Part shown: one piece after another, positions 24,774 to 41,470 of the stretch | Position numbering within the stretch: position 1 is the stretch's first letter | Layout: each line of letters begins with the position of its first letter | DNA from: an uncultured Hyphomonadaceae bacterium | GTDB taxonomy: Bacteria; Pseudomonadota; Alphaproteobacteria; Caulobacterales; Maricaulaceae | DNA: 64,000 nt | Assembly: GCA_913058335.1 (NCBI GenBank) | Contig: CAJXPX010000003.1 | Location: forward strand, 124,001 to 188,000 | Direction of reading: 5' to 3' | The notes under the pieces: model-generated | Seen by the model: only the letters and a program-made list of their open reading frames with translations | The model's database searches: none | Told to the model about the DNA's origin: nothing | Made by a program: the position numbers and the translations under genes

Positions 24774-26288
24774 TTAGGTCAACCCCGCGGCCTGAAACCA
24801 GTTTTTGAACTCTAATTTCTCGTCTTCGCTCATATGAAGACCGCATTTTGTTCGTCGCCAGAGAATATCCTCCGGCGCATTCGCCCACTCATATTCCACC
24901 AGATAACGCACGTCCGCTTCGGTCAAATCGCCGCCAAAAAAGCGCCCTACCCCTTTTTTTAAAACACGCGTTACTCGCGTTCCATACCGCCGACAGAATA
25001 AACGCACTAATTTTGGATCTAGATTTGGGTAATGATCTAATTGAGACTGATAAAAGTCTTCAAAATCCGCTTCGGGAATATTTCCTCCTGGAAAGTAAGC
25101 TTTCTTAGTCCAGGGTTTTCCCATTTCTGGATAATAATGCTTTATCTTCTCCATAACATGATCGGCAAGTTTGCGAGAGGTAGTAATCTTCCCGCCATAA
25201 ACAGAAACAAATGGCGCATCCGTTTCATATTTTTGCAAATCTAAAACATAATCGCGCGTTACGTCGGACGCATCGGCAGCTTTGTCATCATAGAGGGGGC
25301 GTACACCGGAATAGGTCCAAACCACATCACTGGGAGTGGTTTCAATTTCAAAATACTCATTCACGCAATCGCAGAGATATTGGATTTCTTCGTCTGAGGC
25401 TATTGGTGGATCGTTTGGATTTTCATGCGGAACATCCGTCGTTCCGATTAAGGTAAATTTATGCTCATAAGGAATGGCGAATATAACTCGTTCATCTGAA
25501 TTCTGAAATATGAAGGCATGGTCGCCATCGTAAAGCTTAGGGACGATGATATGACTCCCTTTGACCAATCTGAGCGTTGTCTTATCTTTCACATTACTCT
25601 GCTCGACCGAGGCCAAGAGACGATCTACCCAAGGGCCGGCAGCATTAACAATACCTCTCGCTTTAATTGTTTTCACCGTTTCGCCGCTTTGTAGCTCAGC
25701 CAGATATAGACCTCCCTCACCTTTTATAGAACGCACTTCAGTTCGAGTAAAAACATCGGCCCCTTGCTGGGCTGCATCTACGGCATTAAGCACCACCAAA
25801 CGGGAATCCTCAACCCAACAATCGGAGTATTCAAATCCCGTTTCCAGCCGATCTTTTAATACATCGAAAAGAGACCCTTGACCGCGCTTGCGGGTTTTAG
25901 TCCCAGGTAAAAGATCTCGCCCGCCGAGATTGTCGTAGAGGAATAACCCCATGCGTAAGAGCCATTTTGGCCGCAAGCCTTCATCATAAGGCAGAATAAA
26001 GCGTAGGGGCCAGATAATATGAGGGGCAGCGCGAAGTAGAATTTCACGTTCTTTCAGAGATTCCCTAACCAGTTTGAAATCATAATGTTCGAGATAACGA
26101 AGCCCTCCATGAATGAGCTTTGTACTTGCGGAAGATGTGTGGCTCGCTAAGTCGTCTTTTTCGCATAAGACAACCGAAAGCCCCCGGCCTGCGGCGTCAC
26201 GCGCCACAGCTGTACCGTTTATACCTCCGCCAATGACAAGCAAATCATAGACCGGAACTTTGATGTCTATACGGGTGGTTGGCGACAT
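24774..26288 (-). CDS. glpD: Aerobic glycerol-3-phosphate dehydrogenase
   Basis: 504 residues from ATG 26288, fixed by CAGGAGAG about 7 bases upstream; an earlier in-frame codon at 26312 has no ribosome site. FAD motif YDLLVIGGGINGTAVARDAA near residue 13, then SSASTKLIHGGLRYLE, a GlpD signature, and FTLIGTTDVPHENP. It is an FAD membrane-associated enzyme oxidising glycerol-3-phosphate to DHAP and passing electrons to quinone. No glpK, glpF or glpR is next to it. Confidence 0.95.
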   Translation of the reverse strand: MSPTTRIDIKVPVYDLLVIGGGINGTAVARDAAGRGLSVVLCEKDDLASHTSSASTKLIHGGLRYLEHYDFKLVRESLKEREILLRAAPHIIWPLRFILPYDEGLRPKWLLRMGLFLYDNLGGRDLLPGTKTRKRGQGSLFDVLKDRLETGFEYSDCWVEDSRLVVLNAVDAAQQGADVFTRTEVRSIKGEGGLYLAELQSGETVKTIKARGIVNAAGPWVDRLLASVEQSNVKDKTTLRLVKGSHIIVPKLYDGDHAFIFQNSDERVIFAIPYEHKFTLIGTTDVPHENPNDPPIASDEEIQYLCDCVNEYFEIETTPSDVVWTYSGVRPLYDDKAADASDVTRDYVLDLQKYETDAPFVSVYGGKITTSRKLADHVMEKIKHYYPEMGKPWTKKAYFPGGNIPEADFEDFYQSQLDHYPNLDPKLVRLFCRRYGTRVTRVLKKGVGRFFGGDLTEADVRYLVEYEWANAPEDILWRRTKCGLHMSEDEKLEFKNWFQAAGLT

Positions 26289-26397
26289 GAACAATCTCTC
26301 CTGCGATGACACTCAAGACGTAGAAGGTGGGTCAATTATTCGCAAATGAAAAGTCTGGCAGAATAAGATGTTTTCGCAAACTTTACGAATCTGGGAA

Positions 26398-27249
26398 TTA
26401 TAGGCTTTTAAGCCATGAATTTAGATATAATAGGATCTCTTGGCTATGTTTAACCCAACGGAAATGATCAATTTTAGGCTTTAAAGCCTCAGAAGCCTGA
26501 TATTTAATTCGTGTCAAACTCGCTAAATTTAGTTTTTCGACCAAATGGTTCATCGCACCGTGAGGCGCAAAATTGTCCCCTTCAATGGATATAGCCAAAA
26601 CCGGGTGAGTTATTTTCTTCATTGCCGCTTCGTAATCGAAATTCGCTCCTTTGGGCTCGAATAATCCCGTGCGCCCCTGTCTTGCCCAGTCACCCATCAC
26701 GGTTTTGGGTTGACGCCCTCCAAAACCAAGTTTGTGACCTGGAAAATATCCAAATAATGCAGACATGATCAATGTGCATTGGATTGCGATCCAAATTTTT
26801 AAATTCTGCGGAAAAGGATAGGCGCGAAAATAAACGGATCCGCTGGCGATCAAAGCTACAGCTTTCACTTCTTCCGGATGAGCTGCGGTGTAAAGCAAGC
26901 TCAAATGACCGCCGAGGCTATGTCCTAATAATACAATGTCACGATCAGGACAGATTTCTTTTGCCGCGCGGATATGAGCCGATATATCCAGTTCGATCAT
27001 CTCGCAATAGCCAAATTCTGACGGGGGGACTTTTCGGTCACTGGTCCCTTGCCCTCTTAGGTCACAGAGTAAAACCGAATAGCCCTGTTCGGTTAACGCT
27101 TCTGAAAGGGGGCTATAATACCCAGCTTTCACACCCATCGCCGGAAGGCAGAGAAACAGGATATTGGAAGGGGTATTGTCGGGCAAGCATAAAACCGCTT
27201 CGCTCTTTGCGCCGTCTTGCGTCAGAATGGTGACGGATCGAAGTTCCAT
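26398..27249 (-). CDS. Alpha/beta hydrolase (COG4757-like), last gene of the AfsA-like operon
   Basis: 283 residues. Nucleophile elbow L-G-H-S-L-G-G with Ser111, a DLRGQGTSD loop (about 63-71), and a C-terminal DHFRW that probably contains the catalytic His; the I/D-H-F-x-x-x/R-W type C terminus resembles predicted COG4757 hydrolases. It starts 24 bp after the stop of the radical SAM gene, so it is likely the fourth gene of the 30640-to-26398 transcript. In a small-molecule pathway it could release or hydrolyse the acyl product; that is inference. Confidence 0.8.
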   Translation of the reverse strand: MELRSVTILTQDGAKSEAVLCLPDNTPSNILFLCLPAMGVKAGYYSPLSEALTEQGYSVLLCDLRGQGTSDRKVPPSEFGYCEMIELDISAHIRAAKEICPDRDIVLLGHSLGGHLSLLYTAAHPEEVKAVALIASGSVYFRAYPFPQNLKIWIAIQCTLIMSALFGYFPGHKLGFGGRQPKTVMGDWARQGRTGLFEPKGANFDYEAAMKKITHPVLAISIEGDNFAPHGAMNHLVEKLNLASLTRIKYQASEALKPKIDHFRWVKHSQEILLYLNSWLKSL

Positions 27250-27273
27250 AGGCTCCTCAAGGCTACTTCTCGC

Positions 27274-28764
27274 TTATTTCATCAGTAGCGGAAACAGTTC
27301 CGGATTGCCCAGTATAAATTTCGTGACAAAATTCGTGCCAAACCTTGTGTCCCGTGCAAAGTGTTTCTTTTTATCACTGATACATTTTAGAAGCATTTTA
27401 CCCTGTGTATTCAAAGTATGTGCCATATAATCTGTTTGAAGATTACCGTGCCAAACAACGCCCATTTTATTAACAACATAGCGGTCTGCTTGTTCTTCGA
27501 CACATCCGGCTTTTATATGACTCTTGAGAATTTTCATTGCCGGGCCATATCGGTCACTGTCTTTAAATTTTTCGAGCAGAGATTTATCTATTTCCTTAAA
27601 TCTTGGGAACATCACCATAAGGCGGTCGAGAATGCCATCCATCCTTATAGATTGCATAGTTGTTGAAGAAATCCCGTATTGGTCAATATTGGCAATATAA
27701 TCTTCAATTTTGTCAGGATTGATAGACACCATATCCTTTACATTTCCTCGCGCCGCACAACCAATTCCAATAATGTCTTGGCGGCCGCAATGAGCTGTTT
27801 GGTATTGTGAAGGTGCATCTCGTTTGGAGAAAGTCTCAGCGATTGTATTGTGATATCCATGTTTGGTCATGAAATCATAACCAAACTCCCGCATCGCCAA
27901 AAGTTGCCACATCGTACCGGGCTGTTCCAGTCGTTCCTTGATGATAAGTTTATGCATGGGCCGGTAAGGTAGATAGACGGTGCCAAATAAATCGGCCTCT
28001 TCGGGCTGGTATTGATTGACCAGAGTATCAAGGTCATCCACAAATCCATCAAAAGTTTGTCCGGGCAGATCGTACATCAAATCGACACAACGGTCGCCTT
28101 TGTAATTTATCTTTTCCATATTGGTGAAAAGTTCGTCAATATCTTCTCGGCTATCCACTCTTCCGATTTGTTTACGAAGCACCGGATCAAATGTCTCTAT
28201 CCCAAAAGTCACCCGGTCAAAGTCGAAGTCTTTCACGAGTTTTAACTTCTCTATATCTTTGAAAGACCTTGGCTCACCCGTAAAAGTTTTTTCAATCACG
28301 TCATAGTTCGGGACGACCTTTTTCAAATGGGTAAAGAGTCTTTCCATTCCTTTATGAGACAAAGTCGACGGTGTACCGCCGCCTATATATATCGCCGTAA
28401 AATTTCGGGCTTGGACATAAGGCTGCGCCATATACCAATCAATTTCCTTTATGAGGTAATCAACATAAAGATCGAGCCTGTCCTTTGACTGGCGCGGATA
28501 ATGATTCTTATTAAAATTGCAGTAATGACAGAAGGATTTACAATAAGGCACATGAATATACATCATGATGTCGTCATTCAAATTGCCTCCCTCATCTTTT
28601 AATTTGAGTAGGTTTTCATTCACCTGCTCCCTTGTTTGCCAATCCCAATCCATCGTTCCGAAATTAGGCATGATGAAATGGGTGATCGCATAGAGCCGAT
28701 CAAATGGCGTGGGCTGCGGCGGGTTTGGGCCGTAGTAATTAGGCGTAAAATCTATTTTTGACAT
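27274..28764 (-). CDS. HemN-like radical SAM protein (not canonical coproporphyrinogen dehydrogenase)
   Basis: 496 residues from ATG 28764, which shares a base with the stop of the preceding flavoprotein gene (TAATG). Radical SAM cluster motif CKSFCHYC (Cys75, Cys79, Cys82), the SAM-binding Y-I-G-G-G-T-P-S near residue 122, and the HemN/HemW-like order of later motifs. The N terminus F-T-P-N-Y-Y-G-P-N-P-P and the C-terminal part do not look like standard HemN. HemN-like enzymes also catalyse methylations and cyclopropanations in natural product pathways, so a tailoring role next to an AfsA-like protein is plausible. The reaction is unknown. Confidence 0.8.
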   Translation of the reverse strand: MSKIDFTPNYYGPNPPQPTPFDRLYAITHFIMPNFGTMDWDWQTREQVNENLLKLKDEGGNLNDDIMMYIHVPYCKSFCHYCNFNKNHYPRQSKDRLDLYVDYLIKEIDWYMAQPYVQARNFTAIYIGGGTPSTLSHKGMERLFTHLKKVVPNYDVIEKTFTGEPRSFKDIEKLKLVKDFDFDRVTFGIETFDPVLRKQIGRVDSREDIDELFTNMEKINYKGDRCVDLMYDLPGQTFDGFVDDLDTLVNQYQPEEADLFGTVYLPYRPMHKLIIKERLEQPGTMWQLLAMREFGYDFMTKHGYHNTIAETFSKRDAPSQYQTAHCGRQDIIGIGCAARGNVKDMVSINPDKIEDYIANIDQYGISSTTMQSIRMDGILDRLMVMFPRFKEIDKSLLEKFKDSDRYGPAMKILKSHIKAGCVEEQADRYVVNKMGVVWHGNLQTDYMAHTLNTQGKMLLKCISDKKKHFARDTRFGTNFVTKFILGNPELFPLLMK

Positions 28765-30110
28765 TAGGTGCCTCTTCGCGAAACGAGTTGAAAGGTTTGA
28801 TCCTTTGGTGGTATTGACGCTGTCTTCAGGCAAAATGCGACAGTCTCTTTGGCGGCACGAAAACAGTTTTCAATCGAGGCGCCTTTGATAAAATCGCCAG
28901 TGACATATAGACCAGGATTGTTAGATTGTGCGGCCTTTAGCATTTCTCTGAAATTAGCCTCATTTAATGTGTAAGCACAAAGGCCCCGCCGCCAAGATTT
29001 GCGTTTCAAGGCTTGGCAAATATTTCCGGTTAGATTAAAATAAGGGGCAGCTTGCTCTTCAGCGATGGACAAGAGTTCATCATCCGTCAATACATGCGAG
29101 TTCAAGGCTTCAGACGCGGAACCACTAAATGTGTATCGCACAACATTTAGGGCCTTCGTCCCGTAAGCCCCGATATTACTTAAAGCAGAATTGGCCGGAA
29201 AAGTGAGCGCCCGTAATTCCGCATTAAAAACAGGCCGCTTATACTTGGCGACAATTACAGTGACTGGGAAATATCTTGCCTGTCTTAGTGTTTCGGAAAA
29301 CACTGAAAAATCAGAACTTAATAGGTCTGCAGCGGCGTAGGACGGTAGGGCTAAAATAACTTTCGGATATAGCGACATAAATCCGAGGCCAGTAACAGCA
29401 TAAAATCCATTCGTTCTCCGAAGCGCTTTTACCGGTGTTTGAAGTTTCGTTCTTATATTCTGATCGGCTTTGAAAGCCGTAAGAATTTCCGAAATAGGGG
29501 ATTTTAGTTGTTCATATTCATCTTGCAACATATGCAAATGGGTGCCGAAATTTTCTAAAGCAATTTCATCCGGCTCTGCCCCGTTCATCCTTACTGTCAA
29601 TGCTCTGGCTAGAGATTTTGAAAATTTAGGAGAAAAATAATCTGTAATGGTTTTGGAGCGATTTTTGCCAAGAGTTTTGAAATACGGTCCTAACACATCG
29701 CCATTTTTCCTCTCTGCTTTCACCGCTTTCAAAGCACTACGAAGTTTCCACAAGTCCGCAGGTGTTGCAGAACGCAGCAAAGTTAGTCTCTGCTTTGTTC
29801 TGTTTTCTGAATTAAACGGTAAAATCTTTCCATTCGAGAGTCGCGCGGAATTCAGGCCAAAATATTCGTATTTTGCAGGGCCATAATACTCTAGGAATTG
29901 CCTGAATTCCTTATACTGATATCCAATATTTTTGCCGCCAAGGCAGATTTCTTGACCGTTCAAATGAGATATGGCCATACGACCACCAAGGCGGTCACTC
30001 GCTTCATAAAGATCAACTTGCCACCCTTGCCGCGCGAGATAATGCGCCGACGCCAAACCAGAGACGCCCCCCCCAATTACCGCAACTTTATCGTGTGTTT
30101 CTTCACTCAC
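28764..30110 (-). CDS. Protoporphyrinogen-oxidase/amine-oxidase-like flavoprotein
   Basis: 448 residues with a GTG start (30110) whose last bases form the TGA stop of the AfsA-like gene (GTGA). The FAD Rossmann motif KVAVIGGGVSGLASAHYLA and EASDRLGGRMA place it in the NAD(P)-binding flavin amine oxidase superfamily (PPOX, phytoene desaturase, monoamine oxidase). The C-terminal FAD contact GLYVTGDFIKGASIENCFRAA is conserved. It is tightly coupled on both sides, so it must work with the AfsA-like and radical SAM proteins. The specific oxidation is unknown; a heme role is not supported by the neighbourhood. Confidence 0.8.
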   Translation of the reverse strand: MSEETHDKVAVIGGGVSGLASAHYLARQGWQVDLYEASDRLGGRMAISHLNGQEICLGGKNIGYQYKEFRQFLEYYGPAKYEYFGLNSARLSNGKILPFNSENRTKQRLTLLRSATPADLWKLRSALKAVKAERKNGDVLGPYFKTLGKNRSKTITDYFSPKFSKSLARALTVRMNGAEPDEIALENFGTHLHMLQDEYEQLKSPISEILTAFKADQNIRTKLQTPVKALRRTNGFYAVTGLGFMSLYPKVILALPSYAAADLLSSDFSVFSETLRQARYFPVTVIVAKYKRPVFNAELRALTFPANSALSNIGAYGTKALNVVRYTFSGSASEALNSHVLTDDELLSIAEEQAAPYFNLTGNICQALKRKSWRRGLCAYTLNEANFREMLKAAQSNNPGLYVTGDFIKGASIENCFRAAKETVAFCLKTASIPPKDQTFQLVSRRGT

Positions 30111-30640
30111 GCGGAATTTCTTTCGTAACGCGCCAGTAATTTATGGTGAATTAGTTTTATATGGCTCTGATAATGAACGCAGGCCTTACCATTCTGGAGA
30201 AAGATACCGTCAAATGATAACGATTGAAGTTTGCCTCTTCGATAAACCGGATTAAACATACGGCACTCAATGAATAGATCATCTGAGAGGTTGATGAAGC
30301 CGGAAAATCGCATATCGCAGCCTTCCAACACGAAACAATAATCATAACCGACTTCATGGAAAAGATGTGGTATAGCCAGCCCTAGCTGACGACCGGCTTC
30401 AATAATATATAATCCGGGCAGATGTTCCCTCGAATGTTCGAAAAAATAATTATGGTCAGAAACTATTTTCACCTTGGCCAGATAGACGGTTTGGCCAACC
30501 TCATCTGTTTGCGGCAAGATAGATGAAATAAAGACATTTTCTTTAAATTGCTTATGCACGTCGGCTCGGCTCACAGGAACAGATACAGGAATCAAGCCCC
30601 TTTCACCCCTCCCCTCGAACCGCGTTGTCATTACCGACAT
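30107..30640 (-). CDS. AfsA-like hotdog protein, first gene of a four-gene operon
   Basis: 177 residues. It reads VHKQFKENVFISSILP, then DHNYFFEHSREHLPGLYIIE followed by A-G-R-Q and a C-terminal VHYQSHIKLI; the order (H-K...V-F-I-S, H..F.E......P.L.L.E..RQ) matches the A-factor biosynthesis (AfsA/ScbA) hotdog repeat. Streptomyces AfsA has two such repeats and condenses a beta-keto acyl chain with DHAP; here there is only one. GAGG lies 6 bases before ATG 30640. Its GTGA junction with the flavoprotein starts the operon. A butyrolactone-like signal or acyl product is inference; I am moderately sure of the family. Confidence 0.65.
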   Translation of the reverse strand: MSVMTTRFEGRGERGLIPVSVPVSRADVHKQFKENVFISSILPQTDEVGQTVYLAKVKIVSDHNYFFEHSREHLPGLYIIEAGRQLGLAIPHLFHEVGYDYCFVLEGCDMRFSGFINLSDDLFIECRMFNPVYRRGKLQSLSFDGIFLQNGKACVHYQSHIKLIHHKLLARYERNSA

Positions 30641-30651
30641 TCCTCACCTCA

Positions 30652-30665
30652 CAACTTTATAGTGT
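30652..30665. repeat. Twin repeat box 1 upstream of the AfsA-like operon
   Basis: CAACTTTATAGTGT on the + strand, 12 bp before the AfsA-like start, repeated as CAACTTTTTAGTGT at 30709-30722 (13 of 14 identical, 57 bp apart). Box 1 is also partly palindromic (CACA-N9-TGTG, 30650-30666). The two boxes flank a TTGACA element on the minus strand, so they could be operator sites. Confidence 0.5.
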
Positions 30666-30708
30666 GATAATTAATGTCAACTCTTTCAGGTTGTCAATAG
30701 ATTTATTG

Positions 30709-30722
30709 CAACTTTTTAGTGT
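30709..30722. repeat. Twin repeat box 2 upstream of the AfsA-like operon
   Basis: CAACTTTTTAGTGT, the second copy in the same orientation, touching the 3' end of the cardiolipin synthase gene. The interval between copies holds a minus-strand TTGACA (30691-30696) with a TAATTA-type -10 about 18 bases on, a plausible promoter for the operon. Confidence 0.5.
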
Positions 30723-30723
30723 A

Positions 30724-32181
30724 TCATAAGAGAGGTCCCGCCAGACGGAGTATATTTTCTTTCCAACGAATTGATAAACTCCGTTTTTTCCATTGCGCTC
30801 GATCAATGAGATGGGAGTTTTCTATATAATCTTCTACAAGTCGTGATAGGGCTATGTGGAAATAGCGATCATAGACTGCCATTGTTATTTCAAGGTTTAG
30901 GTAAAAGCTTCGCATATCGACATTCACTGTTCCGACGAAACTAATATCATCATCAATTAAAATAGATTTTGTATGAAGCATTCCGCCTTGGTAACGATAT
31001 ATTTTCACACCGGCCCGGAGCATTTCGGAAAAAACAGCCTGTCCAGCGAAACGGGCCATGAGTGAATCAACTTTATGGGGAAGGATTACTCTGACCTCCA
31101 ACCCTCGCTTTGCCGCATTACAGAGGGCCAACACGATCGCTTCATCCGGAACAAAATAGGGGGTGGTGATGGTGATGCGGGTCTGCGCTCCGAAAATGGC
31201 TGAAACGATGACTTCGTATATGAGGCTTGAATAGGACTCCGGGCCAGAAGGTATGAGTTGTAATACAGCATCCCGAGCAAAATTCTCATTCGGGGTATAC
31301 TGCGGCAACTTCATTATATCTGATTTGTCAAAATCGGTTCCGACATGATCAAAGATAAAATCTGTATTAAAGACGACCGCTAGAGACGCCACAATATTCC
31401 CCTCCATCCGGATCATGATATCAACCCATGCTCCGACATTGGCGTCTCGTTTAAAATAAACCGGATCGGCTAAATTTAAACTACCTGTGTAGCCAATAGA
31501 TTGATCTATAACGATAATTTTTCGATGATTTCGTAAATCCGTTCGCTTCGAGACCGACTTTAATATGCCAACGGAAAGAGAGGCCTCTACACGAACGCCG
31601 ACCTGCATCATACTACGCGGCCAATGACTATTAAGAAAAGTTTTGCTTCCAAAATCATCTGCCAATATGCGGCAGTCGACCCCGCGCTTGGCCGCGCGAA
31701 TGATGGCTTCTAAAACTTCATTCACCCGTCCTTGAGGATCAATTATATAAAACTCTAGAAATAAGTGTTCTTTAGAGGCATCAATATCTTTTATGAGCAC
31801 GTCAAAAAGAGCGTGTGCATCCGAGTAGAGCTTTAACTTATTTCCAATGGAGGGATGAAAGCCGGTTTCTCTGGAAATCACTTTAGACATATGCCTAAAA
31901 TAATCTGACACCTCCAGCTCTTCTCTTATAGTCTCCGCTTCATCAATTTCATATGCATCTTGAAAATGCTGTCTTATTTTCGGCCCTAATTTAAGACGTT
32001 TCCGTCCCAATCGATGATCACCGAAAAGGAAGTAGATAAGAAGACCGATTACAGGTACCGCTGCAATAACCATCAGCCACGCCAATGTTGTATGAACGGC
32101 AAGACGGCGACTAATCACTCGAAAAGAGAATACAACAACAACCAAAATATGTAGAAGCAATGTTATCGGTGCGCCGAACAT
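30724..32181 (-). CDS. cls: Cardiolipin synthase (phospholipase D family)
   Basis: 485 residues. Two N-terminal transmembrane helices (about 4-25 and 34-52), then two PLD catalytic motifs: NHRKIIVIDQSIGYTGS (about 218-234) and LHTKSILIDDDISFVGT (about 400-416). It makes cardiolipin by transphosphatidylation between phosphatidylglycerol molecules in the inner membrane. GGAGG lies just before ATG 32181. A GGAAC-N16-GGTA sequence at 32228-32252 on this strand may be a weak EcfG promoter. It is divergent from the EEP-family gene. Confidence 0.92.
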   Translation of the reverse strand: MFGAPITLLLHILVVVVFSFRVISRRLAVHTTLAWLMVIAAVPVIGLLIYFLFGDHRLGRKRLKLGPKIRQHFQDAYEIDEAETIREELEVSDYFRHMSKVISRETGFHPSIGNKLKLYSDAHALFDVLIKDIDASKEHLFLEFYIIDPQGRVNEVLEAIIRAAKRGVDCRILADDFGSKTFLNSHWPRSMMQVGVRVEASLSVGILKSVSKRTDLRNHRKIIVIDQSIGYTGSLNLADPVYFKRDANVGAWVDIMIRMEGNIVASLAVVFNTDFIFDHVGTDFDKSDIMKLPQYTPNENFARDAVLQLIPSGPESYSSLIYEVIVSAIFGAQTRITITTPYFVPDEAIVLALCNAAKRGLEVRVILPHKVDSLMARFAGQAVFSEMLRAGVKIYRYQGGMLHTKSILIDDDISFVGTVNVDMRSFYLNLEITMAVYDRYFHIALSRLVEDYIENSHLIDRAQWKKRSLSIRWKENILRLAGPLL

Positions 32182-34018: not shown

Positions 34019-34864
34019 ATGACATCCATAATTCAATTCGCAGATATTCACTTCGGAGTCGAAGACCAAGAGGCAATGGGCTGCGTCAAAGCCTGTATTG
34101 AAAAACTAGAGCCGGATATTATTGTTATTTGCGGGGACATTACTCAGAACGGATCGGACGCGGAATTTAAGTCTGCTCATGATTGGATTAAAACTCTGAA
34201 CGGCCCAAAACTCATTACGCCAGGTAATCATGATACGCCCATGTATGGCTTAATAGAGAGGTTTACCCGTCCTTTTGCTAAGTACAAAAAGTGGATTGAG
34301 CCCTTAAGCGTTCCCCACTTTACCAATAGTGACGTCACCATTCTTCCCTATAACTCTTCACGCGGCTGGCTCTTTGGATTTGATTGGTCGCTTGGCGCGG
34401 TGAATCTGAAGGACATGGCCAAACTTACGGATGAAGTGAAGCGATTAAGTCAAGGCGGTGTCGAAATGATTATGGCACATCACCCATTGATTTATCCTGA
34501 AATGTCTCCTCTCCAAAAGCTTACAAAAAATGGCCCAGAAACCCTGAAATATTTAAGCCATCGAAATGTGGATGTGGTTTTGACGGGACATGTTCATGTC
34601 CCTTTCGCAATTGAACGACAACCTAATGAAACGGAAGTCATTTCTATAGGAGCGGGAACTCTTTCCACGCGGCGTAGGGATAAGCCCGCCAGCTTCAATC
34701 ATATTTCAGTTGATCAAAAAATGATCAAAGTCAGTGCTATTGACTTTACAGATGGAAAGTTTCTAACCACTGAAACATTCTCTAAACGGGTCGACGCGTT
34801 AAACAGTCGCCGCCCCCTTAAACCTTCTAATGAACGAGATGTAGGCTATGACAAACTATCCTGA
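34019..34864 (+). CDS. Calcineurin-like metallophosphoesterase (cyclic nucleotide phosphodiesterase-like)
   Basis: 281 residues. Metal motifs: FADIHFG (about 7), CGDITQNGSDAEF (about 40), TPGNHDTPMYG (about 66), MAHHPLIYPE (about 152) and LTGHVHVPFAIE (about 188). The D-x-H, G-D, G-N-H-D, G-H-x-H set is complete. CpdA-like class III phosphodiesterase architecture. It lies 30 bp after the lipid kinase stop. Substrate could be a cyclic nucleotide or a phospholipid headgroup; the context slightly favours lipid. Confidence 0.85.
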   Translation: MTSIIQFADIHFGVEDQEAMGCVKACIEKLEPDIIVICGDITQNGSDAEFKSAHDWIKTLNGPKLITPGNHDTPMYGLIERFTRPFAKYKKWIEPLSVPHFTNSDVTILPYNSSRGWLFGFDWSLGAVNLKDMAKLTDEVKRLSQGGVEMIMAHHPLIYPEMSPLQKLTKNGPETLKYLSHRNVDVVLTGHVHVPFAIERQPNETEVISIGAGTLSTRRRDKPASFNHISVDQKMIKVSAIDFTDGKFLTTETFSKRVDALNSRRPLKPSNERDVGYDKLS

Positions 34865-35270
34865 TACTGCGCCTAACGAGCACGAAGAGCACGAAAAAAT
34901 AGTGCAACACATCGAGAGTTTGGCCACGCTCATGGACAGTCAGTTTAAATTACCCGGCACAGGCATAAATTTGGGCTTGGACGCGATTGTTGGTTTAATT
35001 CCCGGTCTGGGCGATACGGCGAGTTTAGGGGTTTCCGGCTATATTGTTATTCAGGCTGCCCGCTTAAATTTGCCGAAACGAAAGCTATTTCGAATGGGGT
35101 TTAATATTTTCATTGACTGGCTTATTGGCCTGGTGCCTCTCATCGGCGACATTTTCGATATTGGCTGGAAGGCTAATAAGAGAAATGCAAAAATGACACG
35201 AGAGCTTCATGAAAAGAGGAAACGGAAAGAACCTATCAATGCACTTCCCCGTGCCTCATCGCAATCTTAA
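34848..35270 (+). CDS. DUF4112 membrane protein
   Basis: 140 residues with the DUF4112 pattern: LDAIVGLIPGLGDTASLGVS and FIDWLIGLVPLIGDIFDIGW, two Gly-rich amphipathic membrane segments each containing the P-x-x-G-D box, then a basic tail. It begins 17 bp inside the 3' end of the phosphoesterase gene, so it is coupled to the lipid kinase operon. The family has no known function. Confidence 0.85.
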   Translation: MTNYPDTAPNEHEEHEKIVQHIESLATLMDSQFKLPGTGINLGLDAIVGLIPGLGDTASLGVSGYIVIQAARLNLPKRKLFRMGFNIFIDWLIGLVPLIGDIFDIGWKANKRNAKMTRELHEKRKRKEPINALPRASSQS

Positions 35271-40081: not shown

Positions 40082-41470
40082 CTAGCCGCGTCCGGCAATC
40101 CAATCTTGACCATGTTCCTGCTCTAATAAATACTCTGGATCAGCGATCATTTTTTGAGACATATTATAATGCTTTCGTAGCTCTGCCTTATCAACTTCTG
40201 ACGGCAAAAGCTCCTCCGCGGCCATTTTTAAGTTTTCCAATTGTTTCAAAACGCAGGATTTATGGTCATCCGTTCTCACAATAGACACAATTTCCGTCAG
40301 AACTGTCATCATCTTGATGGCAGTATTTCTATCTGTCGCGACATAGGCTCTAGACTGATTGCAAATAGCATCTACGAAACGTTCGAATGTAACTGGATAA
40401 GCTATCAGCCTTAAATTGCCTTCCTCGTCATGCCGAAATGGACTTGGATACTCGCCTCCGGCAAAACGTTTCATGGCGCTGTGGAACCAATTAATGCAGT
40501 TCATAGCCGTGAAGGGATCGTTCACCCCCGGAGACAGTGCCCGCGCCAAGATTTCAACCAACTCATCTGCCAGAAATAGAATATTTTGATAAGCTGACCG
40601 AGAGTGTCCTGTTGCAAACCCGTTCAAAAAGTCGAGTTTTTGCTCTTTAGTCAGGTTGTCTTTTGACCAGACCCGCACCAAAATATCGTCCTTTGTGATA
40701 AAATCCCCGGGCCGGTATTCAATTTTTGCCACAACTCCTAAGTCCGAGCATAGCTTCAACAAAGCCTCCTCATTCAGCGTTTGAACAAATCCTTCAAAAC
40801 GGGACCGGATGATTTGGGCCTCGCTTAATTTATATTCACTCAAATCCACTTTTTTATCATTCTCTGAGCGCCCGATATTCATAGGGTAACGCGTCTCTAT
40901 ATCCTTAGACAGACGCCGACCGACCCGGCTTGTGATATTACCCACATTGAGTGTCTCCGGAATGTGGTGAATGAAATAGATCAATACTCCGACACTCATC
41001 AAAGTGAGCCCCATAGCAACAAGCAGAGATATATTTGGGATAAATTCAGTAATGGCATCTTGTGCATCCGTGCCGTCCCCAGTTCGGGCCACCCGCAAAA
41101 TCAACAAGCAGTAAATAAAGGTCGAAGTAAACGTTCCCAAGGTCACTTGGTTGCCGCGGTCACGCATGAAATTCCCGATGAGACGAGGGCCATATTGACC
41201 TGCTGCGCTGGTTACAGCCACCATAGTGATGGAAAAAGTCGTGGCAGCGACGCCGATCATGGATCCAGCAATTGTGGCCAGTATAGTTCGAGCTCCTGTG
41301 GCCTTATTTGATAGAAAAAAAATCGAATCGTCCGAAACTTTAAGACCATAAATTTCGTCCAGAGCAATCGTCACATATGCAAGAAAAATTGCACCAAACG
41401 CCATGAGGCCCGGTATGAAATAATAGCTGCTTTGCAAGTCCTGCCAAATTTTGATTAGCCGTGCGCTCAT
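40082..41470 (-). CDS. DUF2254 integral membrane protein
   Basis: 462 residues. Four transmembrane helices in the first 170 residues (about 17-37, 58-84, 106-124, 140-163) with the signature AGSMIGVAATTFSITMVAVT, then a large cytoplasmic C-terminal domain including ALSPGVNDPFTAMNCINWFH. These are DUF2254 features; the function is unknown. It is the last of three genes (DUF2945, MscS, DUF2254) separated by 1-2 bp, under an EcfG-type promoter. Confidence 0.88.
   Translation of the reverse strand: MSARLIKIWQDLQSSYYFIPGLMAFGAIFLAYVTIALDEIYGLKVSDDSIFFLSNKATGARTILATIAGSMIGVAATTFSITMVAVTSAAGQYGPRLIGNFMRDRGNQVTLGTFTSTFIYCLLILRVARTGDGTDAQDAITEFIPNISLLVAMGLTLMSVGVLIYFIHHIPETLNVGNITSRVGRRLSKDIETRYPMNIGRSENDKKVDLSEYKLSEAQIIRSRFEGFVQTLNEEALLKLCSDLGVVAKIEYRPGDFITKDDILVRVWSKDNLTKEQKLDFLNGFATGHSRSAYQNILFLADELVEILARALSPGVNDPFTAMNCINWFHSAMKRFAGGEYPSPFRHDEEGNLRLIAYPVTFERFVDAICNQSRAYVATDRNTAIKMMTVLTEIVSIVRTDDHKSCVLKQLENLKMAAEELLPSEVDKAELRKHYNMSQKMIADPEYLLEQEHGQDWIAGRG

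Follow-up and report, generated by a model that had tools for sequence, protein, structure and literature searches.

A four-gene operon encoding an AfsA-like protein

The window analyzed here is a 64-kb stretch of DNA (64,000 nucleotides of contig CAJXPX010000003.1) from an uncultured Hyphomonadaceae bacterium. On its minus strand, from 30640 to 26398, four genes form one operon that encodes an AfsA-like protein, a flavoprotein, a radical S-adenosylmethionine (SAM) enzyme, and an alpha/beta hydrolase.

30107 to 30640, minus strand: AfsA-family single-hotdog protein, 177 amino acids (aa), PF03756, motif H69-x3-H73-x-P-G-x4-E81-A-G-R84-Q85
28764 to 30110, minus strand: flavin adenine dinucleotide (FAD)-dependent oxidoreductase of the protoporphyrinogen oxidase (PPOX)/amine-oxidase type, 448 aa, GTG start, PF01593
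27274 to 28764, minus strand: HemN-superfamily radical SAM enzyme, class C-methylase-like, 496 aa, PF04055, CX3CX2C
26398 to 27249, minus strand: alpha/beta hydrolase, 283 aa, PF00561, probable triad S111, D225, H262

The four genes sit between glpD and a cardiolipin synthase gene (cls) and are tightly joined: the GTG start of the flavoprotein gene overlaps the stop of the AfsA gene (GTGA), the flavoprotein and radical SAM genes overlap by TAATG, and a 24-bp gap separates the radical SAM gene from the hydrolase gene. The radical SAM protein is counted from an ATG, the listed 519-aa open reading frame (ORF) using an upstream TTG; in the AfsA gene, a second ATG three codons downstream is an equally good start. 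An earlier note on this DNA, made from its letters, had read the same operon with the same junctions, and its family assignments stand in a Pfam scan, in which all four proteins exceed the cut-offs: PF03756 for the single-repeat AfsA-type hotdog protein (E 4.9e-21, 75.6 bits, gathering cut-off 24), PF01593 for the PPOX-like flavoprotein (81.7 bits), PF04055 for the HemN-like radical SAM enzyme (65.3 bits, CX3CX2C at C75/C79/C82), and PF00561 for the hydrolase (70.9 bits). Its extent of 26398 to 30722 is right at the lower end and too long at the upper end, where the AfsA gene reaches only to 30640.

Conservation and rarity of the gene set

Among 18 genomes of the genus, some of them incomplete, the radical SAM gene proper is present in two, the window's own (100%) and one other (G003, 89%). 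The latter has the four genes in the same order as the window, indicating that the arrangement is more than chance, and identities to the window's proteins are about 58% for AfsA, about 50% for the flavoprotein, 88.5% for the radical SAM enzyme, and about 59% for the hydrolase. Wider searches found the radical SAM gene in 2 of 328 genomes of the order (E 1e-60), and in the class sample (1 of 385, E 1e-40) and the phylum sample (1 of 398, E 1e-45) the sole hit was the window's own genome. Eleven of 60 relatives match the radical SAM protein at E 1e-20 or better; nine of these are 26 to 31% identical, and the ones inspected are HemN-like. No relative occurred among 21 stretches of viral contigs that matched the radical SAM query, and no family member appeared at the limits used among plasmids (only two Listeria records, 26 to 29% identical) or phages (seven records, those listed being 23 to 29% identical).

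Within the family, PF03756 is found at E 0.001 in 5 of 137 genomes and above cut-off in two (G000 and G003), the same two that carry the radical SAM gene. The three sub-cut-off matches are FabZ-type (21.5 to 22.6 bits), and the two inspected by eye (L014 and L015) are FabZ beside lpx genes. PF03756 occurs in 2 of 289 genomes of the class. In the second of these (L046), which belongs to another family, the AfsA-like gene stands alone (L046:9521-10285, 49 bits); the other three genes were not recognized by eye among the listed ORFs, and the next ORF is HAD-phosphatase-like by eye. It is perhaps a separate small butenolide-type locus.

Since synonymous divergence is saturated between the window and G003, selection was measured by nonsynonymous divergence (dN) and fourfold sites. 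The radical SAM gene has a dN of 0.08 with only 36% of 153 fourfold sites in agreement, while the AfsA, flavoprotein, and hydrolase proteins are 52 to 59% identical (dN 0.36 to 0.46) and GlpD is 70% identical (dN 0.22). High protein identity together with diverged fourfold sites points to a radical SAM gene that has long resided in both genomes and is subject to purifying selection much stronger than that on its partners; a recent transfer of this gene alone between the two genomes, which we considered in view of its 89% identity, is rejected by the same fourfold sites. The radical SAM protein, being the most strongly conserved of the set, is well suited to finding further clusters.

The same set in actinobacteria

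Peptide patterns from the active site of the radical SAM protein (a 91-residue segment) were searched for in 84,980 species genomes and led to six relatives, namely, five actinobacterial loci and one HemW fragment from a Burkholderiales metagenome-assembled genome (L053, 36%). The five loci belong to Streptosporangium nondiastaticum, Streptomyces roseoverticillatus, S. klenkii, Streptomyces sp. NRRL B-1140, and Streptomyces sp. S465. They are a lower bound: other peptides, taken from a two-row alignment, gave 47 matching stretches and no relative, a false negative caused by differences of the actinobacterial proteins at those peptides. Over their full length, the actinobacterial radical SAM proteins are 56 to 59% identical to that of the window; the corresponding values are 38 to 40% for the hydrolases, 37 to 40% for the flavoproteins, and about 20 to 24% for the AfsA proteins (four aligned).

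In all five loci, the AfsA, hydrolase, and flavoprotein genes adjoin the radical SAM gene, indicating that the set is one pathway. All five AfsA proteins are above the PF03756 cut-off and have two hotdog domains. The gene order is AfsA, flavoprotein, radical SAM, hydrolase in the window and AfsA, [beta-ketoacyl-ACP synthase III (KAS III)], radical SAM, hydrolase, flavoprotein in the actinobacteria, where ACP stands for acyl carrier protein. A four-enzyme set kept in two phyla in differing order is not explained by chance or hitch-hiking, and we regard it as almost certain that the four genes make up a single conserved pathway. The gene order that the earlier note expected to find in relatives is thus kept in 1 of 17 other genomes of the genus, and the five actinobacteria have the set with its order changed.

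In the actinobacteria, the set is part of a longer gene cluster of fatty-acid type. By tblastn, an ACP, a ketosynthase (KS), and an enoyl-CoA hydratase (ECH) are encoded in all five, and KAS III and FabG-like and FabI-like reductases in four, NRRL B-1140 being the exception. A gene of the major facilitator superfamily (MFS) type is 85 to 100% identical in three loci, with a distant match (31%) in S465. Pfam confirmed KS, ACP, and ECH in two loci each and KAS III, the FabI-like protein, the FabG-like protein, and MFS in one each. Next to the copy in NRRL B-1140, large ORFs (L051:14387-20202) look like polyketide synthase (PKS) genes by eye, a KS-bearing one on the plus strand and another on the minus strand. 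The cluster KS matches the KS-bearing ORF at 33%, and this copy may be part of a larger polyketide cluster or supply it. The host of the window is, by inference, Gram-negative, the genomes of its family carrying lpxD-fabZ-lpxA by eye.

The four-gene module itself is well supported: it is real, conserved, rare, and, as far as is apparent, undescribed, with known enzyme families in a new combination. Among titles and starts of abstracts of the openly licensed literature, no such cluster was recognized and no product named, in line with the earlier note, which knew of no described route pairing these enzymes; subscription papers may describe the actinobacterial product. Three outcomes had been set beforehand as fatal to that note's proposal (no AfsA match, no conservation, and ordinary HemN/HemG enzymes), and none of them came true.

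The radical SAM enzyme

What kind of radical SAM enzyme has been conserved so strictly? Its scores are below the cut-offs of all the named families compared: 200.5 bits for HutW/ChuW (TIGR04107, cut-off 400), the best NCBIfam match; 151.9 bits for HemW (TIGR00539, cut-off 205.4); 122.4 bits for HemN (TIGR00538, cut-off 324.95); and 106 bits for HemZ (cut-off 321.4). By comparison, the two true HutW proteins found among 200 phylum genomes reach 596 bits; the window's genome has no HutW at E 1e-80 and encodes a true HemW elsewhere (272.6 bits). In a tree of 19 proteins, which left out one sequence (L011) that is included in the HemN motif count, the seven members of the radical SAM family form one clade with support of 99/99. 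The fourth cysteine (CGC) and the N-terminal PRYTSYP of HemN are present in all nine HemN proteins of the order and in none of the seven family members, and a tyrosine before GGG is found in all seven members and both HutW proteins but in none of nine HemN and two HemW proteins. This protein is neither a HemN nor a HemW.

Class C radical SAM methylases are known from a handful of pathways. The accessible text on one of them, NocN, describes a second SAM held by Tyr34, Tyr96, Arg153, Asp196, and Ser225, plus the main chain of Ile302 (PMC13266988). The first four align with Y69, Y126, R184, and D228, which are invariant in all seven members, so that the window's protein combines CX3CX2C with the second-SAM residues at the four alignable positions; this fits an enzyme that binds two SAM molecules and transfers one carbon. 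Characterized class C enzymes methylate, lactonize, or cyclopropanate sp2 carbons, as far as the accessible parts of two papers go (PMC13266988; PMC6050322). We rate the transfer of one carbon by the window's enzyme as fairly probable.

The protein thus shares with class C methylases (NosN/NocN, TbtI, C10P, Jaw5, ChuW/HutW, and CoeI), in the parts of the sources available, the HemN-type core, CX3CX2C, and the four second-SAM residues. It lacks the HemN trip-wire motif and the fourth cysteine, and it differs from those enzymes in forming a separate clade of seven with its own N- and C-terminal blocks and in being paired with an AfsA protein rather than with thiopeptide, indole, heme, or iterative PKS substrates or systems. 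Two further cysteines, C326 (two residues past a conserved QTAHC block) and C336 (in a GxGC motif), are invariant in all seven members; among the HutW and HemN sequences compared, no counterpart of C326 was seen.

The AfsA-like protein, the flavoprotein, and the hydrolase

Most of what is known of AfsA enzymes comes from Streptomyces hormones. The 177 aa of the window's protein hold one hotdog stretch, which aligns with the second domain of the actinobacterial AfsA proteins, and H69, H73, E81, R84, and Q85 are invariant in seven aligned AfsA domains. Against NF041195, the model of ScbA/BarX gamma-butyrolactone synthases, the match is partial (35.1 bits, cut-off 200). The motif reads EHxxEHLPGxxxxEAGRQ, compared to HFPGxPxxPGVLxxExxAQ in two FabZ proteins of the family. 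A sequence search of the PDB gave no AfsA structure; a structure model of the protein has a mean confidence score (pLDDT) of 85, with the first 15 residues of low confidence. According to the accessible part of a study of the gladiostatin PKS, AfsA-like domains condense 3-ketothioesters with dihydroxyacetone phosphate to a phosphorylated butenolide in vitro (PMC7756379). AfsA-type condensation by the window's protein is slightly favored.

The nearest named family of the flavoprotein is protoporphyrinogen oxidase (TIGR00562), with 70.3 bits against a cut-off of 97.85, consistent with the view of the earlier note that it might not be an ordinary member; hydroxysqualene dehydroxylase HpnE (TIGR03467) gives 61.2 bits, below its cut-off of 283.05. 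Its model (pLDDT 79) has PPOX as the nearest folds, followed by L-amino acid, nicotine, and monoamine oxidases and phytoene desaturase. In the hydrolase, S111, D225, and H262 are invariant in seven aligned members and are probably its Ser-Asp-His triad.

A proposed pathway

The best explanation, which we hold to be probable by a modest degree, is a small-molecule pathway that the window's lineage and actinobacteria share through ancient horizontal transfer, with the operon as its tailoring core. We infer the substrates, order of steps, and product as follows. The host fatty-acid machinery would supply a beta-ketoacyl (3-ketoacyl) thioester, a task that in Streptomyces would fall to the dedicated ACP, ketosynthase, KAS III, and reductases. 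The AfsA protein would form a phosphorylated butenolide from this thioester and a C3 acceptor, probably dihydroxyacetone phosphate or a similar compound. Next, the radical SAM enzyme would bind two SAM molecules and deliver the one-carbon unit of the second to an sp2 carbon, as a methyl, methylene, or cyclopropane carbon; the flavoprotein may oxidize or isomerize the skeleton, adjusting its oxidation state; and the hydrolase may open an ester, lactone, or thioester or release the product.

Any specific product, such as a butyrolactone, goes beyond the evidence. A bolder proposal, which we offer tentatively and which may well be wrong, is an undescribed class of natural products common to Streptomyces and the window's lineage. 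Its scaffold would be an AfsA-made butenolide (or acyl-C3), to which a dedicated class C radical SAM enzyme would add one carbon (methyl, methylene, or cyclopropane) and in which a PPOX-type flavoenzyme would rearrange the double bonds. In that case, the extreme conservation of the radical SAM enzyme would mean that the one-carbon step defines the product. The joining of AfsA and a class C radical SAM enzyme in a four-gene set kept in two phyla offers a compact lead to new chemistry that can be tested. In its Gram-negative form, the set calls for just four genes in addition to primary metabolism; the Streptomyces form reveals the carrier protein and synthases that feed the pathway.

Comparison with known systems

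Besides the class C methylases, three known systems resemble parts of this proposal. The AfsA, MmfL, and gladiostatin synthases of phosphorylated butenolides have PF03756 above cut-off and the H-x3-H-x-PG...E-A-x-R-Q motif in common with the window's protein, which differs in having a single hotdog domain and in scoring below the ScbA/BarX cut-off. Methylenomycin assembly by the mmy genes, as described in the accessible text, likewise brings together KAS III, ACP, a butenolide synthase, and a flavoenzyme, with lactone hydrolysis proposed as a late step (PMC12593393); in contrast, its butenolide synthase, MmyD, is AvrD-like and uses a pentulose, and that text mentions no radical SAM enzyme. Anammox clusters proposed for ladderanes share fatty-acid genes, SAM radical enzymes, and phytoene-desaturase-like flavoproteins; this likeness is one of gene content, and the portion of the paper available mentions no AfsA protein (PMC2649909).

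Alternative explanations

Several observations weigh against a butenolide-type tailoring core. The actinobacterial AfsA proteins have two hotdog domains and the window's protein one, and the BLAST match between them is weak (E 4e-6 to 4e-4). None of the additional actinobacterial genes, from ACP, KS, and ECH to KAS III, the reductases, and MFS, has a homologue (E 1e-4) within the window's 64 kb or the 28 kb surrounding the G003 copy, so the donor thioester must come from primary metabolism. In the radical SAM enzyme, the positions of Ser225 and Ile302 of NocN, in the account available, fall outside the aligned stretch, and the comparison covers four contacts. The solved folds nearest to the AfsA model are FabZ dehydratases, with anammox FabZ among the best, and no other dehydratase-type hotdog was seen in the actinobacterial cluster. 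The AfsA protein could thus act as a dehydratase. It might then be a dehydratase/isomerase-type hotdog protein in a set whose product is an unusual lipid (unsaturated, cyclopropanated, or ring-bearing), made in an anammox-like manner. Anammox FabZ proteins are also its best profile matches, insignificant as these are (E 0.03 to 0.05). Four of the five actinobacterial loci combine KS, ACP, FabG-like, and FabI-like proteins with no other hotdog seen, leaving a dehydratase role open, and the operon stands beside glpD and cls. In the accessible text of Rattray et al., fatty acid synthesis genes occur with SAM radical enzymes and relatives of amine oxidases and phytoene desaturases (PMC2649909). 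However, the motif of the protein departs from that of the two FabZ proteins of the family, and its PF03756 score of 75.6 bits is far from the 21.5 to 22.6 bits of the three FabZ-type matches. An enoyl-CoA hydratase is present in all five actinobacterial loci, the cls adjacency is not conserved, and the likeness to the anammox clusters is one of gene content. We consider such a lipid pathway unlikely.

Two further readings take their cue from the best-known relatives of single proteins. The operon might make a conventional gamma-butyrolactone-type hormone, with the other genes as decoration, since AfsA is described as the key enzyme of such signals in the part of the source available (PMC7756379) and the ScbA/BarX model does match in part. 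That match is far below its cut-off, however; no TetR/ArpA-type receptor was found among the 13 neighboring ORFs scanned (19338-41470), and the actinobacterial set, with dedicated fatty-acid-like genes and an MFS-type gene in three loci, looks like a product cluster, making a hormone quite improbable. A role in heme or tetrapyrrole metabolism, with a HutW-like ring-opening enzyme and a PPOX-like oxidase, would agree with HutW as the best NCBIfam match of the radical SAM protein, a model that all seven members match, and with PPOX as the nearest named family and folds of the flavoprotein. The tree also groups the family with the two true HutW proteins, but only at 89/88 and with a warning of long-branch attraction from the program, and the limits of this grouping are a point against the tailoring core as well. 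The HutW score is only half of its cut-off, the same 13 ORFs hold no heme gene, as the earlier note had said, and the partners in the five actinobacteria are ACP, KS, AfsA, and hydrolase. To our knowledge, AfsA and ACP have no role in heme breakdown. A heme pathway is therefore the least credible of these readings and very unlikely.

Neighboring genes

Two genes flank the operon on the same strand.

24774 to 26312, minus strand: glpD, glycerol-3-phosphate dehydrogenase (NCBIfam NF008899, 701.6 bits), context and not claimed for the pathway
30724 to 32181, minus strand: cardiolipin synthase gene, cls (TIGR04265, 425.9 bits), context only

The cls gene lies 83 bp upstream of the AfsA gene and could be co-transcribed with the operon. 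This adjacency is not kept in G003, whose copy is elsewhere (C2:621293), whereas glpD adjoins the operon in both genomes, with a DeoR-type regulator gene in between in G003. A link of the operon to glycerol/cardiolipin metabolism via glpD and cls was rejected, the first adjacency being kept and the second not. Regions of 16 to 17 kb at seven glpD loci, from six other members of the genus, showed no operon homologue. One genome of the genus (G014, C2; L039, L040) has two glpD genes, each 60% identical to that of the window, and one of them has as its neighbor a DeoR-type gene with 65% identity to the DeoR-type gene adjoining the G003 operon. Near the operon, the window also encodes two conserved proteins without assigned function, DUF4112 (34848-35270, 118 bits) and DUF2254 (40082-41470, 370 bits).

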